Counted from the stretch's first letter, positions 38,899-44,847 are shown. The stretch is DNA of 64,000 bases from Piscirickettsiaceae bacterium CG07_land_8_20_14_0_80_44_28 (GCA_002779995.1 PEWX01000076.1:1-64000); one strand, 5' to 3'. The notes: generated by a model from the sequence alone, not told the origin. Made by a program: numbers and translations.

Positions 38899-39735
38899 TT
38901 AAATTGAAGGGGTGGTGTCAGCCTCTATCGTTCGATCATTCAATTGTTGGATTGGACGGGTATTGCCATCAAATAAGGTCTGAAATACCGCTAATTGCTT
39001 TTGTGAAAATTCAATGGGCGTTTGCATGATAATCCAGTTTACATTTTCAGCACAAGCGGGGGTTGTGAAGGATCCGGAATAGCGATAACTTGCTCTTTGT
39101 GATTCTGGTGGTAAGAGGGTTGTCAAATCAAAACTAAATTCAGGAATCTCCGCCAAAAGGACTGAATCAGGCAGGTGATCGATGAGTGTTGCTATATTTT
39201 CATTGCTAGCGCCGACTTGAAGTAATACCGCCACAAATGTGTAAGCCCCTGTGGTATCTTTGTGAACAAAATGGATAGCACCATCATAAGGTTTGCCATC
39301 GATTTGATGATCGCTTGGGGTGTGTAAATGAATCTGTTGCAGTTCAGATTTTACGCCATTCACGACAATTGCGTTATGCGTTGGTTCCTCTTGAAGGTCA
39401 AAACCATAAATACCAAAGCCTAGCGTGGTGCTTTTGACGGCCGTTGGTTGATATTGAAAATCGACATTGGGCAGGTCTAATGGGGATAAACTAGCCGCTG
39501 TAATGTTGATAGGCGACTGCCTTTGACCATATTTACAGGTAGTATAAGGTTCTCCATTACGGTCAACCACCAGATGCCAAAACTCGGGGCCATTACTGCC
39601 TGAAAAGCTCCAGGTCGTCATCGGCGAAACTGAGCTGCTATCGCCACCGCCACAAGCTGATAGGATAAGTGTCGTGGATACTAATAGCATACTAGAGAGT
39701 GGTTTTTTGAGTAAGTTCAGCATAAATAATGTCAT
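38899..39735 (-). CDS. Alpha-class carbonic anhydrase, predicted lipoprotein
   Basis: The product is about 278 residues with a lipoprotein signal ending LILSAC-GGG. The alpha-CA domain shows QSPINI, zinc ligands of the H-x-H pair in QIHLHTPSDH, a third histidine in AIHFVH and the Thr199 region GSFTTPAC. Compared with human CA II numbering, Glu106 is Asp (SDH) and Glu117 is Ala (GAIH). It would interconvert CO2 and bicarbonate at the cell envelope, relevant to carbon uptake. The start is uncertain: candidate ATGs at 39735 and 39723, or a GTG at 39780, and none has a convincing ribosome binding site. Confidence 0.88.
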   Translation of the reverse strand: MTLFMLNLLKKPLSSMLLVSTTLILSACGGGDSSSVSPMTTWSFSGSNGPEFWHLVVDRNGEPYTTCKYGQRQSPINITAASLSPLDLPNVDFQYQPTAVKSTTLGFGIYGFDLQEEPTHNAIVVNGVKSELQQIHLHTPSDHQIDGKPYDGAIHFVHKDTTGAYTFVAVLLQVGASNENIATLIDHLPDSVLLAEIPEFSFDLTTLLPPESQRASYRYSGSFTTPACAENVNWIIMQTPIEFSQKQLAVFQTLFDGNTRPIQQLNDRTIEADTTPSI

Positions 39736-40669: not shown

Positions 40670-41650
40670 TCACGGATGACCATTTGGCGGTCTGGCGGTT
40701 TTGATGTCTTGCATCATTTTCTGTTGCGTTTGCTGTTGCTGGCGTTGTAATGCTTTTTGTTGTTGGTGAATGGCATTCTGCTCATGTTGTATTTGCATCA
40801 GTTGCCGGGTTTGGTTTTGTCGTGCCGAAGGTCTTGGTTGTATAGCCGAATTTACAGGAGATAATCGCCGATTGTGGTTCGGGTTGTTAAATTGATAAAC
40901 GTCCTGTTTTGAATCGGTTTTTTGCATTTTGTGGCTGCCCTGGCGTGTTTCTAGGGTCGCGTTGCGTTTTAAACCGCGCAGTATTGACCAAGGGTTGTGC
41001 TGAATGAGCTTGGGTTCGACAATCCAACGCGAAACGGTTTCACTCAATGCGAACTGGGGTTCAGGTTGATAGAAGACCTTTTGCTGAGGGTTCTGGTTCA
41101 ATCGAGTCGCTGTCCAACTTTGGTCTGCATTTTTAAAACCGTTGATCGCAATATAGTGCCCAGGAATCAGTTGGATTCCTTGATCTTGATGGCTTTGTGG
41201 ATTCAGTCGAATCTGGTGCTGATGCTCTACAACGATGGTGGTATCTGTGGTCGCCGTAATTTGCCCCGCGATTGGATAGTGGATCGAAATTTCGCCCGTT
41301 AAGGTTTGATCCTCAAGTGGCAAAGTTTCTAGAATGACTTGTTGTCCCAACTTTAAGGTGTCGGTTGAAGATAAATTGGAAACGATACGGGTTTGTTCGC
41401 CATAACCGATTTCAATGTCATTCACCCAGATGCTGCCAAATGCTTCAACGGTGCCGATGATGCCGGTTCCACCAAAGCCGGAAGCGCTGTGTCCTGTGCC
41501 GCCAAATCCGCTGGTATCTTCAAGCTGAGCGATCACCGGTGCGCCCGTGCCCCCAAACCCTGATTCAGTGAGTGTTTGATTTGACTGGCAGGCGCTTAGC
41601 AGCAGTGCGGTCAGCCAAAATGCTAGGTGGTGGAAGCTAGATGTTTTCAT
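40670..41650 (-). CDS. GFGGTG-repeat lipoprotein with DUF5666-like domain
   Basis: The product is 326 residues with a lipoprotein signal (LTALLLSAC) and three SGFGGTG repeats in the next 50 residues. A beta-rich DUF5666-like region follows (GTVEAFGSIWVNDIEIGYGE; LKLGQQVILETL; GHYIAINGFKNADQSWTATR). The tail is Gln-rich and coiled (QQQKALQRQQQQTQQKMM). Envelope location is predicted; function unknown. The ATG at 41648-41650 overlaps the DUF6502 gene end by 14 bp, so they are coupled. It is the last gene of a three-gene minus-strand operon with the barrel and DUF6502 genes. Confidence 0.7.
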   Translation of the reverse strand: MKTSSFHHLAFWLTALLLSACQSNQTLTESGFGGTGAPVIAQLEDTSGFGGTGHSASGFGGTGIIGTVEAFGSIWVNDIEIGYGEQTRIVSNLSSTDTLKLGQQVILETLPLEDQTLTGEISIHYPIAGQITATTDTTIVVEHQHQIRLNPQSHQDQGIQLIPGHYIAINGFKNADQSWTATRLNQNPQQKVFYQPEPQFALSETVSRWIVEPKLIQHNPWSILRGLKRNATLETRQGSHKMQKTDSKQDVYQFNNPNHNRRLSPVNSAIQPRPSARQNQTRQLMQIQHEQNAIHQQQKALQRQQQQTQQKMMQDIKTARPPNGHP

Positions 41651-42488
41651 GATCAGGCTCTTGGTGTTTGTTGAAATAAGCACCCAAATGAAACGAGTGC
41701 GAGGCTTCGGCGTTTGCTTTTTCAGCCGTTTGTAAACGATTGGCCTTTTGGTTAATGTCCATCAACGCTTGCAACAGTTTTTCTTTCGCCAGCGTTTCCA
41801 ATTCGTTTAGGCTCTGTTGCGTTAGGTGATCGTAGTAAACCGCACGATCAAATAGGGGCGGCGTATTGTTTGACAAATTGTTGGCAATGACTTCAAGGTG
41901 TTCGCCAATATTTTTGCCGGCAAAAAACAATTTCTCTTCAAAATCCGCTTCGGGTACATAGCCTTTTTCGTTCAGAAAAATCCACTCCTGATTTTGTTCG
42001 ATTTTTATTTCGATAATGCCTTGATTGAGCCATTCGTCCATCAGTGAACGTGGATGCTTATCTTTGGAAACCGACAGCACCAGATCTTCAAAATTAGCTT
42101 GAGGATTTTCGGTTGAGGCGGATTTTAATAGTGGTTTGGGGCGCTGTTGAGGATCGAGATAGTCTGGATCACCTGTCCATTTTGCAATCATTTGCGCGCT
42201 TAACCCCGCTTTAATTTCTTTTTCAGTAAGTTGGCCTGGGGCTTCGTGACGAATGCGCTTGACATCGGCACGATGAATGCCGGTGAGCAAGCTAATGCGG
42301 CTATCGGTGAGTTTTTTGTTTTTTAAGCAAAAGGATTCTTCAGCGACTTCAATATAGGTGCGCTTTAACAAATTTTGCAAGCCAACAAAAGTGATATTTT
42401 GTTGAATTAATAGTCGCACTAATGGCTTCAGCATTTTTCTAACGGCTTTGATTAAGGCTGTTTCTTGTGGTTCAGAATCCGTAGTCAT
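41637..42488 (-). CDS. DUF6502 family protein, probably DNA-binding
   Basis: The product is 283 residues beginning MTTDSEPQETALIKAVRKMLKPLVRLLIQQNITF and matching the DUF6502 pattern: a helical region, then LKNKKLTDSRISLLTGIHRADVKRIRHE, which looks like a helix-turn-helix, and a longer mixed C-terminal domain. No signal peptide, so cytoplasmic. A natural hypothesis is regulation of the envelope cluster it sits in, perhaps through the TGTAA-N5-TTACA sites; that is inference. Starts 17 bp after the barrel gene stop on the same strand. Confidence 0.7.
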   Translation of the reverse strand: MTTDSEPQETALIKAVRKMLKPLVRLLIQQNITFVGLQNLLKRTYIEVAEESFCLKNKKLTDSRISLLTGIHRADVKRIRHEAPGQLTEKEIKAGLSAQMIAKWTGDPDYLDPQQRPKPLLKSASTENPQANFEDLVLSVSKDKHPRSLMDEWLNQGIIEIKIEQNQEWIFLNEKGYVPEADFEEKLFFAGKNIGEHLEVIANNLSNNTPPLFDRAVYYDHLTQQSLNELETLAKEKLLQALMDINQKANRLQTAEKANAEASHSFHLGAYFNKHQEPDHENI

Positions 42489-42505
42489 CCAAAAAGTCTC
42501 TTAAG

Positions 42506-43240
42506 TTAAAAGGTTCTGACGATTGACGCGCCGATGCTATAGGTATTGCTGGTGTCGTAACGACCTAAGCCCGAGAGCGACCAGCGAGGATTAATTGTGT
42601 AATTAGCCGATAAGGATAGATTAAAAATATCATCCAAATCGCTATATTGGCTTTGAAAATAGTCGAATGATAAACTGATTAAGGTCGAGGATGTTAGCGC
42701 TTGACCAAATCCTACGCCGCTATACAGGCTGTTTTGCATGTTTAAACTGTTAACTTTACCAACCCATTCATAGCCCAGTGTGTAAAACATAAAACGTTGT
42801 GAGTCTAGGGCGAAAAAATAATCGAGCTGTAATGCGGTATCATTTTCGCCAGTGCTAAACCCTTTGTCGCTATTGCCAGTTGCGAATTTCTCTTTTATTT
42901 GAAAACGCCAGCGGCCATCTTCCGTTAGGTTATAGCCAACAGCGAGGGTTAAATCGCCCAGGCCTGCTGAATTTTCAAGGGTATTGTCTGCTAAAGTTGG
43001 CGAGCTGAGTTGTGCCCAATAGCTACTGAGTGCGGTATAAAAACGTTGATGTTGCGTCGAAATCATAAAAGGGACTGCAAAGCTACTGGTGTTTGGTAAA
43101 CCCGTCTCCTGGCTTTGTCCCTGACTATAAAACAGACCCGTTGAGAGGGTGGATACGATTTGATCTGCGGATTGCGCATGGGCGCTCCATAGCAAGCTAC
43201 TCAGGGGGAGAAGATAGCGTTTTACTTGACCAAATGGCAT
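42506..43240 (-). CDS. Putative outer-membrane beta-barrel protein
   Basis: The product is 244 residues: signal peptide (LLPLSSLLWSAHAQS, cleavage near AHA), then alternating strands rich in aromatics and ending in a terminal Phe (GASIVRTF), the mark of outer-membrane barrels inserted by BAM. Strands such as LGDLTLAVGYNLTEDGRWRF and LISLSFDYFQSQYSD are typical. About 10 strands can be guessed. The ligand or channel function is unknown. It heads an operon with DUF6502 and the GFGGTG lipoprotein. A TGTAA-N5-TTACA site lies 80 bp upstream. Confidence 0.65.
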   Translation of the reverse strand: MPFGQVKRYLLPLSSLLWSAHAQSADQIVSTLSTGLFYSQGQSQETGLPNTSSFAVPFMISTQHQRFYTALSSYWAQLSSPTLADNTLENSAGLGDLTLAVGYNLTEDGRWRFQIKEKFATGNSDKGFSTGENDTALQLDYFFALDSQRFMFYTLGYEWVGKVNSLNMQNSLYSGVGFGQALTSSTLISLSFDYFQSQYSDLDDIFNLSLSANYTINPRWSLSGLGRYDTSNTYSIGASIVRTF

Positions 43241-43320
43241 TTACTTTCTCGCACTCCTTGCGTTTTGAATCAGAATAACCACCGCCATTTTATCAACTTT
43301 TGAATGGAAACGGCGCTTTC

Positions 43321-43335
43321 TGTAAAGTTTTTACA
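43321..43335. promoter_or_regulatory. Operator-like TGTAA-N5-TTACA upstream of the barrel gene
   Basis: TGTAAAGTTTTTACA is a 15-bp inverted repeat (TGTAAA...TTTACA). The same pattern appears at 44732-44746 and, with one change, at 44787-44801, upstream of the DUF2202 gene. This ties the two transcription units of the cluster together. Confidence 0.65.
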
Positions 43336-43369
43336 TCTTCTGTAGCCAGCTAAAGCAGCATTCTGTAAT

Positions 43370-44704
43370 TTAGTGTCTCCCCATACCAAGACCATTCCCC
43401 ATGGTGGATGAGGCATTGCTGTGGGATGGATATTCAGGATGACAGAAGTCAGCGCCGAGCGAACAACATCCATCGGTCACACCTTGTTTTTTAAGGGCAT
43501 TATCGAAAGCCCAATAATGGTTGTCACTGCCACGACGTAGATTTTCAAATACCATTTTCAAATCTTGCGCATCACCCGCAATTTCAATTTGTTGCGTTAG
43601 ATCATCGATATCCGTGACTTCCACTTGGCAGCCCACTTCAAGACTGGCTCTTGCAGAGCTTGCTCCTGTTGCATAAAGGCTGTCATAGAGTGACTGGATG
43701 TCAGTGAGCGTGTAGCTGCCTGCGGCGTAACTGTCTAATACGCTTTGAGTATACGGATAACTTGCGTCATCATAATGCTCAACATCAATATTGTATTTTT
43801 GCAACAGAGATTCCATGCTCAATTGATGTTGAGATTCAGCATTGTTTGCAATGTTATTTAGCGTATTACTCGGGTACAAAAGATTGAGCGCAAGATAGAG
43901 ATCCTTTGCCATTTTTTCTTCATTCCACAAAAAAGCCAATGACCGTTTTTGTGTATTGTCTAGGGCGTAATTCGGCAAACTGGCCAATGTTGTATCCAAA
44001 CTGGTTCCTTGTGTAGCCATGCTATTCAGGTCGTCTGCTTCGCTTCGCAACAAAGGCAAGACCCTGCCTGAAAGTTCATTGGTGACTAAGTTTTGCTCTA
44101 GTTCAGACGCTGCTTGCGGTGAATGGGTGTAGAGATCAATACGATTTTGAATCGGAATGGAAAGGGTCTGCCATTGCGTTTCGGTCAGGGTTGCCGCATC
44201 GGTAATGTTATTTTCGATGCAATACTTGAAAACTTCATCACTCAAGGCGGCTATGGCTTTATCGGTAGAAGGGGTTTGATTGAAAATAGTGTCTTCCGAT
44301 AAGTTGAGTTCGGAAATTAATTTTTGTTTAAGTGTCTCGTTGCTCGCTAAAGTGGTGGCAAGGGTGACGACTCTGCCGTTATTGGCTTTGAGTTTAATAT
44401 CATTGGTTTTGAGGTCACCTTCATCAATAATGCCATTGCGATTCAAGTCAATAATGCCACCCGTGGTTTCAATCGGGTATTGGATATCGCCTGAAAAACG
44501 GTATACCCCCTGACCAACGGCTTCTGCACGATTGCCGGTGGCATCTTGCAATACGGCATTGAGTAAAGGGCCTCTTTCTGCAACGATATCTGTTGTTGAA
44601 AGTTCAAGTGAACTGGAGGTGCCGTTGGGATTGGTGCAGCCAGCGAGTAAGGTCAGACTGAGACTTATGGGCATAATTAGGTGTTTGGGTGTGTTGGCTA
44701 ACAT
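43370..44704 (-). CDS. DUF2202 ferritin-like lipoprotein
   Basis: The product is 444 residues: lipoprotein signal ending LTLLAGC-TN, a 200-residue N-terminal part of unknown fold with an EF-like calcium motif (DLNRNGIIDEGD), and a C-terminal DUF2202 helical bundle with NEEKMAKDLYLAL, ESQHQLSMESLL and NHYWAFDNALKKQG. The carboxylates and histidines suggest a ferritin-like di-metal site. It ends with a Cys/His-rich tail (CCSLGADFCHPEY; GMGRH) that could bind metal. ATG at 44702-44704 has AGGAG 9 bp upstream, and the longer frame to 44752 overlaps the operator. Confidence 0.75.
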   Translation of the reverse strand: MLANTPKHLIMPISLSLTLLAGCTNPNGTSSSLELSTTDIVAERGPLLNAVLQDATGNRAEAVGQGVYRFSGDIQYPIETTGGIIDLNRNGIIDEGDLKTNDIKLKANNGRVVTLATTLASNETLKQKLISELNLSEDTIFNQTPSTDKAIAALSDEVFKYCIENNITDAATLTETQWQTLSIPIQNRIDLYTHSPQAASELEQNLVTNELSGRVLPLLRSEADDLNSMATQGTSLDTTLASLPNYALDNTQKRSLAFLWNEEKMAKDLYLALNLLYPSNTLNNIANNAESQHQLSMESLLQKYNIDVEHYDDASYPYTQSVLDSYAAGSYTLTDIQSLYDSLYATGASSARASLEVGCQVEVTDIDDLTQQIEIAGDAQDLKMVFENLRRGSDNHYWAFDNALKKQGVTDGCCSLGADFCHPEYPSHSNASSTMGNGLGMGRH

Positions 44705-44728
44705 GGTTTGGCACTCCTGGGTTATAGT

Positions 44729-44801
44729 AAATGTAAAAATGTTACATTTCATATTGTAGCGATAAAGTAGCGCGCGTCAATAAAAAAGTAAAATATTTAC
44801 A
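44729..44801. promoter_or_regulatory. Two TGTAA-N5-TTACA operators upstream of the DUF2202 gene
   Basis: At 44729-44749 a perfect 8-bp inverted repeat (AAATGTAA-N5-TTACATTT) contains TGTAAAAATGTTACA. At 44787-44801 AGTAAAATATTTACA keeps nine of the ten core arm positions. Their starts are 55 bp apart, and the nearer site is about 28 bp before the start codon, so a bound protein would overlap the promoter or leader. The geometry is like HexR sites but the inner bases do not fit that consensus. Confidence 0.65.
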
Positions 44802-44847
44802 TTTTATGCAGCTTGGGATGGGTCGTTTAAAGTGAGGGGTTGATTGC

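Follow-up and report, generated by a model that had tools for sequence, protein, structure and literature searches.

DUF6502 proteins as likely autoregulating transcription factors of an exported-protein regulon

Which regulator governs a cluster of little-studied envelope genes that share a palindromic operator? The cluster lies in a 64,000-nucleotide stretch of DNA from Piscirickettsiaceae bacterium CG07_land_8_20_14_0_80_44_28 (GCA_002779995.1, PEWX01000076.1:1-64000), hereafter the window, and comprises genes for a DUF2202 ferritin-like lipoprotein, an outer-membrane β-barrel protein, a DUF6502 protein and a DUF5666 lipoprotein with GFGGTG repeats. An initial annotation of the window had described these four genes together with three copies of TGTAA-N5-TTACA, at positions that we confirmed, and had proposed that they form one regulon, possibly under the control of the DUF6502 protein itself. 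We found no paper describing DUF6502 (PF20112) or GFGGTG lipoproteins, and nothing usable on DUF2202 or on the metal response in Hydrogenovibrio. The best explanation of the comparative evidence presented here is that the DUF6502 proteins are autoregulating helix-turn-helix (HTH) transcription factors of a family not recognised before. Leaving any metal-related role aside, we think it probable that DUF6502 regulates a regulon of exported proteins.

In the 2.28-Mb genome to which the window belongs, the exact TGTAA-N5-TTACA palindrome is present in four copies, two of them in the cluster, 1.4 kb apart. A longer, 21-bp form of the operator, searched for with at most one mismatch, was found in this genome only at the two sites flanking the promoter of the DUF2202 gene (operators A and B; Table 1), with a count of 0 for the control. 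The third site, operator C, fits the 21-mer less well (12/16), but L048 and L053, the two closest relatives, have a matching site in the corresponding position. Since there is no other 21-mer site in this genome, its regulon appears to be limited to the cluster.

To look beyond this genome, we scanned for enriched 5-mer dyads upstream of DUF6502, with no motif assumed, at 39 DUF6502 loci (neighbourhoods from 35 of 75 related genomes plus a few loci from a GTDB scan). The top dyad, AAATG-N11-CATTT, is nested with TGTAA-N5-TTACA and was present at 16 of the 39 loci, compared with 0-1 occurrences in 322 kb of other DNA; the operators were normally paired, at a distance of 55-69 bp from each other. 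Many of these loci differ in their flanking genes, so the conservation of the operator is not mere synteny. The genome scan for the operator that the initial annotation had suggested, when extended to 59 genomes of the family, yielded 50 sites for the 21-mer (at most one mismatch) versus 5 for a reversed control and found the 21-mer confined to genomes that encode DUF6502: the protein is encoded in all 18 genomes with the 21-mer versus 17 of the 41 without it (P = 8e-6).

DUF6502 itself is widespread, with at least 527 relatives in one GTDB genome scan. An independent dyad search directly upstream of DUF6502 at 57 distant loci found GGGA-N5-TCCC at 42 of them, mostly as a perfect 17-mer, GTGGGA-N5-TCCCAC, and often in two copies. 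In 12 whole genomes this 17-mer occurred 26 times, versus 4 for the control, nearly always at the DUF6502 locus. A palindrome directly upstream of DUF6502 was found across Alpha-, Beta- and Gammaproteobacteria, with subgroup versions TTTGGGA-N6-TCCCAAA (6/6) and GTGGTA-N5-TACCAC (4/4), as well as ATGGGA-N5-TCCCAT and hybrids of the type ATGTAA..CCAT. A site lay on or beside the DUF6502 promoter at 77 of 101 distinct loci, a lower bound since the misses include L116, L133 and L160, where it falls just beyond the searched interval; the corresponding figures for control windows were 18/1940 and 0/470.

When operator class was placed on a quick DUF6502 tree, it changed 5 times, compared with a mean of 21.6 after shuffling (0 of 200 shuffles were as low), and the hybrid and intermediate operator forms also follow the tree. 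From this distribution, the GGGA form looks ancestral, with the hybrid and then the TGTAA form seeming to have arisen in the Thiomicrospira-type family, although the root of the tree is unsure. The locus L125, titled as a Klebsiella pneumoniae metagenome-assembled genome, clusters with aquatic Gammaproteobacteria on the same tree and is probably a mislabelled bin. That DUF6502 recognises the operator, a claim resting on their co-occurrence and covariation, is in our judgement highly probable, and the suggestion that DUF6502 is the regulator has become likely, given that the operator co-occurs and coevolves with DUF6502 and also lies directly upstream of it in distant lineages.

The DUF6502 protein of the window matches PF20112 with 93.4 bits over residues 11-246 (the curated cutoff is 27), and it has no Pfam or NCBIfam match other than its own DUF. 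In an AlphaFold2 model (mean predicted local distance difference test score, 88), the helices at residues 62-69 and 73-81 form a predicted HTH. This element falls within a highly conserved, near-invariant stretch of the DUF6502 alignment (TDSRIS..TGIHRxxVKR), in which T69, G70, R73, K77 and R78 are invariant.

The idea that the operator defines a single regulon was supported by the relatives, which carry it before genes unlinked to DUF6502. Unlinked sites precede genes for exported DUF2202 proteins in five genomes (G009, G034, G041, G045 and G075), genes for small exported Gln-rich proteins, mostly with GGGKR-like tails (G009, G014, G034, G041, G045 and G075), and tandem arrays encoding 44-aa exported peptides (MKKIIFAALLTFG..ASA-HHM..) in eight genomes, all of which have DUF6502. 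The peptides, whose predicted mature N terminus is HHM, are present in 2-7 copies in most genomes, and their genes are small enough for gene callers to miss. Arrays of up to seven near-identical copies with operators upstream were seen at L268, L269, L270, L271, L274, L283, L296 and L297. A CN-hydrolase gene considered as a target was withdrawn; the paired sites in question belong to tandem 44-aa peptide genes. Sites at unlinked targets match the operator class of their own genome. Genomes with TGTAA at DUF6502 likewise have TGTAA at the peptide genes, and in the genomes with a hybrid operator at DUF6502 (G022, G026 and G036) the sites before the peptide genes are of the ATGGGA or ATGGAA type, with one TGTAA-type site in addition in G026. 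Further sites were found at tolQ (three genomes), at a gene for an exported EF-hand Met-rich protein (G077) and at a membrane protein gene (G075). A perfect 21-mer operator lies before the gene for a 410-aa membrane protein without a Pfam match (L202:3120-4352).

The position of the sites relative to promoters bears on the sign of regulation. The bracketed promoter layout seen in the window is found in 17 of 17 canonical pairs, with agreement at 8-11 of 12 promoter positions (at 10 or more in 12 pairs). In the GGGA class, at ~19 loci, one site occupies the 17-bp spacer that runs from TTGACG to the -10 element of a divergent promoter. Because the sites bracket or fill promoters, repression is favoured. 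In the mechanism that we propose, a DUF6502 dimer, assumed because the operator is palindromic, would bind a 17- to 21-bp inverted repeat whose 6-bp half-sites flank a 5-bp centre (AAATGTAA-N5-TTACATTT in the window, GTGGGA-N5-TCCCAC in most other Proteobacteria). With sites, usually paired, that bracket sigma-70-like promoters or fill their -35/-10 spacer, DUF6502 would most likely repress transcription, including that from its own promoter, and a signal would relieve this repression; both the sign and the signal we infer. The controlled genes would encode the GxGGTG lipoprotein, in most cases also a FapF/TodX-like barrel, and in addition tandem 44-aa HHM peptides, small Gln/Met-rich proteins or a DUF2202 ferritin-like protein. 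At L141, L154, L112 and similar loci, TATACT followed after ~7 nt by ATG lies directly before DUF6502, which suggests that the DUF6502 transcripts there are leaderless.

Table 1. Genes, operators and promoter of the DUF6502 cluster, in window coordinates
Feature	Position	Strand	Remarks
DUF5666 GFGGTG lipoprotein	40670-41650	-	PF18914, E = 7.3e-10; lipobox
DUF6502 protein, proposed transcription factor	41637-42488	-	PF20112, E = 1.4e-26
Predicted HTH of DUF6502, residues 62-81 (recognition helix 73-81)	42246-42305	-	AlphaFold2 model and alignment
Outer-membrane β-barrel with signal peptide, Phenol_MetA_deg/FapF/TodX-like	42506-43240	-	PF04338/PF13505, weak
Operator C, upstream of barrel-DUF6502-DUF5666	43318-43338 (core 43321-43335)		Exact TGTAA-N5-TTACA
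DUF2202 ferritin-like lipoprotein, Cys/His C-terminal tail	43370-44704	-	PF09968, E = 1.1e-20
Operator B	44729-44749 (core 44732-44746)		Perfect AAATGTAA-N5-TTACATTT; directly downstream of -10
Sigma-70-like promoter of the DUF2202 gene	44753-44780	-	TTGACG-16-TACAAT; flanked by operators A and B
Operator A	44784-44804 (core 44787-44801)		One mismatch in core; directly upstream of -35

Within the cluster, the DUF2202 gene appears to be its own transcription unit, and the barrel, DUF6502 and DUF5666 genes (43240 down to 40670) appear to form a second one, in which the start of DUF5666 and the end of DUF6502 share 14 nt. Although the longest reading frame of DUF2202 begins at 44752, the ATG with a Shine-Dalgarno sequence is at 44704; the site at 44732 is therefore upstream of the gene. 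The DUF5666 lipoprotein, encoded by the sole DUF5666 gene of its genome, contains the SGFGGTG repeat three times and ends in a Gln-rich tail. Near the cluster, positions 38899-39723 (minus strand) encode an exported alpha-type carbonic anhydrase lipoprotein (PF00194, E = 2e-33).

A GxGGTG motif is encoded by the gene that follows DUF6502 at 63 of 71 and 29 of 40 loci, compared with 11/673 and 0/316 for other proteins, and a barrel gene lies within 3.5 kb of DUF6502 at 38 of 56 and 14 of 35 loci. By these neighbour counts, DUF6502 co-occurs strongly with the barrel and with the GFGGTG lipoprotein, the latter a pairing that the initial annotation had proposed to check together with DUF2202. DUF2202 joins the others mainly by sharing the operator; its gene is adjacent to DUF6502 in only a handful of loci, and its place is taken in other genomes by a small Gln/Met-rich exported protein. 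Neither of the two outcomes that the initial annotation had named as fatal to the proposal, families that fail to co-occur or an operator at many unrelated genes under a known regulator, was found.

Several other neighbours were observed. In five genomes of the family (L051:3835-8038, also L052, L075, L076 and L077), DUF6502 is of a second type, has an N6 palindrome and adjoins genes for an Fe/Mn superoxide dismutase and an AhpC/TSA-family protein, neighbours hinting at oxidative stress. At Pseudohongiella-like loci (L112:10712-12058, L118:11010-12386 and L155:11214 onwards), the cluster adjoins a gene for a tetratricopeptide-repeat plus barrel protein (DUF2860 match) that recalls Slam-type surface-lipoprotein exporters and has its own operator in L155. 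L142 encodes a curlin-like repetitive exported protein of ~130 aa, ~2.9 kb from DUF6502. As for DUF2202, the whole domain of the window protein aligns with MJ0754 (PDB 3q4n; E = 4e-15), with matching ferritin-like EEK.A.D, ExxH and GS.NH ligand stretches; whereas MJ0754, whose role is unknown, consists of this domain alone, the window protein is a long lipoprotein with an extra N-terminal domain and a Cys/His tail.

We conclude that the products of the regulon have an extracytoplasmic site of action; metal binding and polymer export are their leading candidate roles. The metal or oxidant handling proposed in the initial annotation is hinted at by the types of protein that are exported. Tentatively, the exported proteins may bind a metal (copper or iron) extracytoplasmically, with the barrel and lipoprotein serving in export or surface attachment. 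Two points weigh against this: all the evidence for it is compositional (Met-rich proteins, the N-terminal HHM and the ferritin-like domain), and the Gln/Asn-rich versions would fit a polymer equally well. We regard as unlikely, if worth weighing, the alternative that the FapF/TodX-like barrel secretes Gln/Asn/Met-rich repetitive proteins as fibres, anchored by the GxGGTG lipoprotein and with their assembly regulated by DUF6502. The barrel family profile does match FapF, the exporter of the Pseudomonas Fap amyloid (PDB 5o65; E = 2.3e-7), but it matches the hydrocarbon channel TodX alike (6.5e-8). Low-complexity Q/N/Y/M-rich exported proteins occur in or near the cluster (for small Q/M/N-rich ones, 15 of 198 small open reading frames near DUF6502 versus 4 of 422 elsewhere), and some DUF5666 lipoproteins have Gln/Glu-rich, coiled-coil-like tails; the repeats, however, look helical rather than amyloid-like. 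No FapA-E partner, including the cysteine protease, and no Fap-type chaperone was seen among the annotated neighbours, though no search was aimed at these partners, and DUF5666, DUF6502 and DUF2202 are not known as Fap components. The polymer explanation also leaves DUF2202 and the HHM peptides unaccounted for.

We consider it improbable that some other regulator, encoded elsewhere, reads the operator and that DUF6502 is only one of its targets or a cofactor. Regulators often lie apart from their targets, binding by DUF6502 itself is inferred, and no operator was found for the DUF6502 subgroups L068/L069/L074/L097/L101 and L083. Also weighing against the explanation that we favour, DUF6502 has no sequence relative in the PDB, and some targets seem unrelated (tolQ and the unknown membrane protein). 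In its favour, the recognition helix tracks the GGGA form: HR is followed by KD in 34 of 37 GGGA-class proteins and in 0 of 24 with TGTAA or hybrid operators, counts that take the sequences as independent of descent. Many columns outside the HTH, however, separate the operator classes equally well, and the HTH was not singled out when DUF6502 columns were compared with operator class by mutual information. An unlinked regulator is nevertheless hard to reconcile with a palindrome that stays directly upstream of DUF6502 in three proteobacterial classes while changing along the DUF6502 tree and that, in the 12 distant genomes, is almost nowhere else. Moreover, DUF6502, with its predicted HTH, is the only constant DNA-binding-like gene at the loci.

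If DUF6502 is itself the regulator, does it belong to a known type? The half-site letters of the window operator resemble those of the TyrR box, TGTAAA-N6-TTTACA, but the centre is N6 in TyrR and N3 here, and DUF6502 matches no Pfam family but its own. In a fold search of the PDB with the model of the window protein, HetR, the cyanobacterial heterocyst regulator with a DBD-flap-hood fold, took the top six ranks (including 4j00, 4yrv, 3qod and 4izz), with template modelling scores of 0.25-0.35 and E values of 1.4e-3 to 5e-3. The two proteins are similar in length (299 aa for HetR and 283 aa for DUF6502), and both have an N-terminal HTH. HetR needs a GGG/CCC inverted repeat and autoregulates (PMC4192349, PMC4649674), and one of its lysines contacts the GGG half-site (PMC4649674); placed by eye, this lysine would be at the position equivalent to the KD of the DUF6502 recognition helix. 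On the other side, HetR was absent from the fold matches of a second DUF6502 model, of lower quality; hhalign against two HetR sequences gave a probability of 0.1 percent (the HetR query was checked against PDB entries); and the HetR site is GGG-N5-CCC, whereas the DUF6502 sites are GGG-N7-CCC or TGTAA-N5-TTACA. No HetR was found in plasmids and phages. Because the profile and second-model checks failed and the operator spacing differs, we did not assign DUF6502 to HetR, and we treat the fold match as a lead only. By analogy with HetR-PatS, DUF6502 might be a HetR-type regulator outside cyanobacteria, acting in feedback or cell-cell signalling with the tandem 44-aa HHM peptides, a notion that we find very doubtful.

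The probability that the palindrome arose by chance or from the base composition of AT-rich intergenic DNA is negligible: the 15-mer with at most one mismatch does not reach significance in the window (6 seen, 2.7 expected, with 6 of 100 shuffles reaching 6) and is barely above the control genome-wide, but the 21-mer is strongly enriched across genomes and tied to particular positions, the GTGGGA form holds GC, so that AT drift is excluded, and the window sites are taken as non-chance because they are conserved across the phylogeny. We rejected this explanation on the cross-genome dyad scan, the 21-mer enrichment and the sites at 77 of 101 loci.

With DUF6502 as the likely regulator, PF20112, a family listed as of unknown function, would gain a function, a DNA target and a regulon, and several unknown exported families (DUF5666, DUF2202, the Gln/Met-rich proteins and the tandem micropeptides) would be joined in one regulon. 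The natural operator series GGGA, GGTA, hybrid and GTAA, with its accompanying changes in the recognition helix, would make protein-DNA coevolution directly testable.

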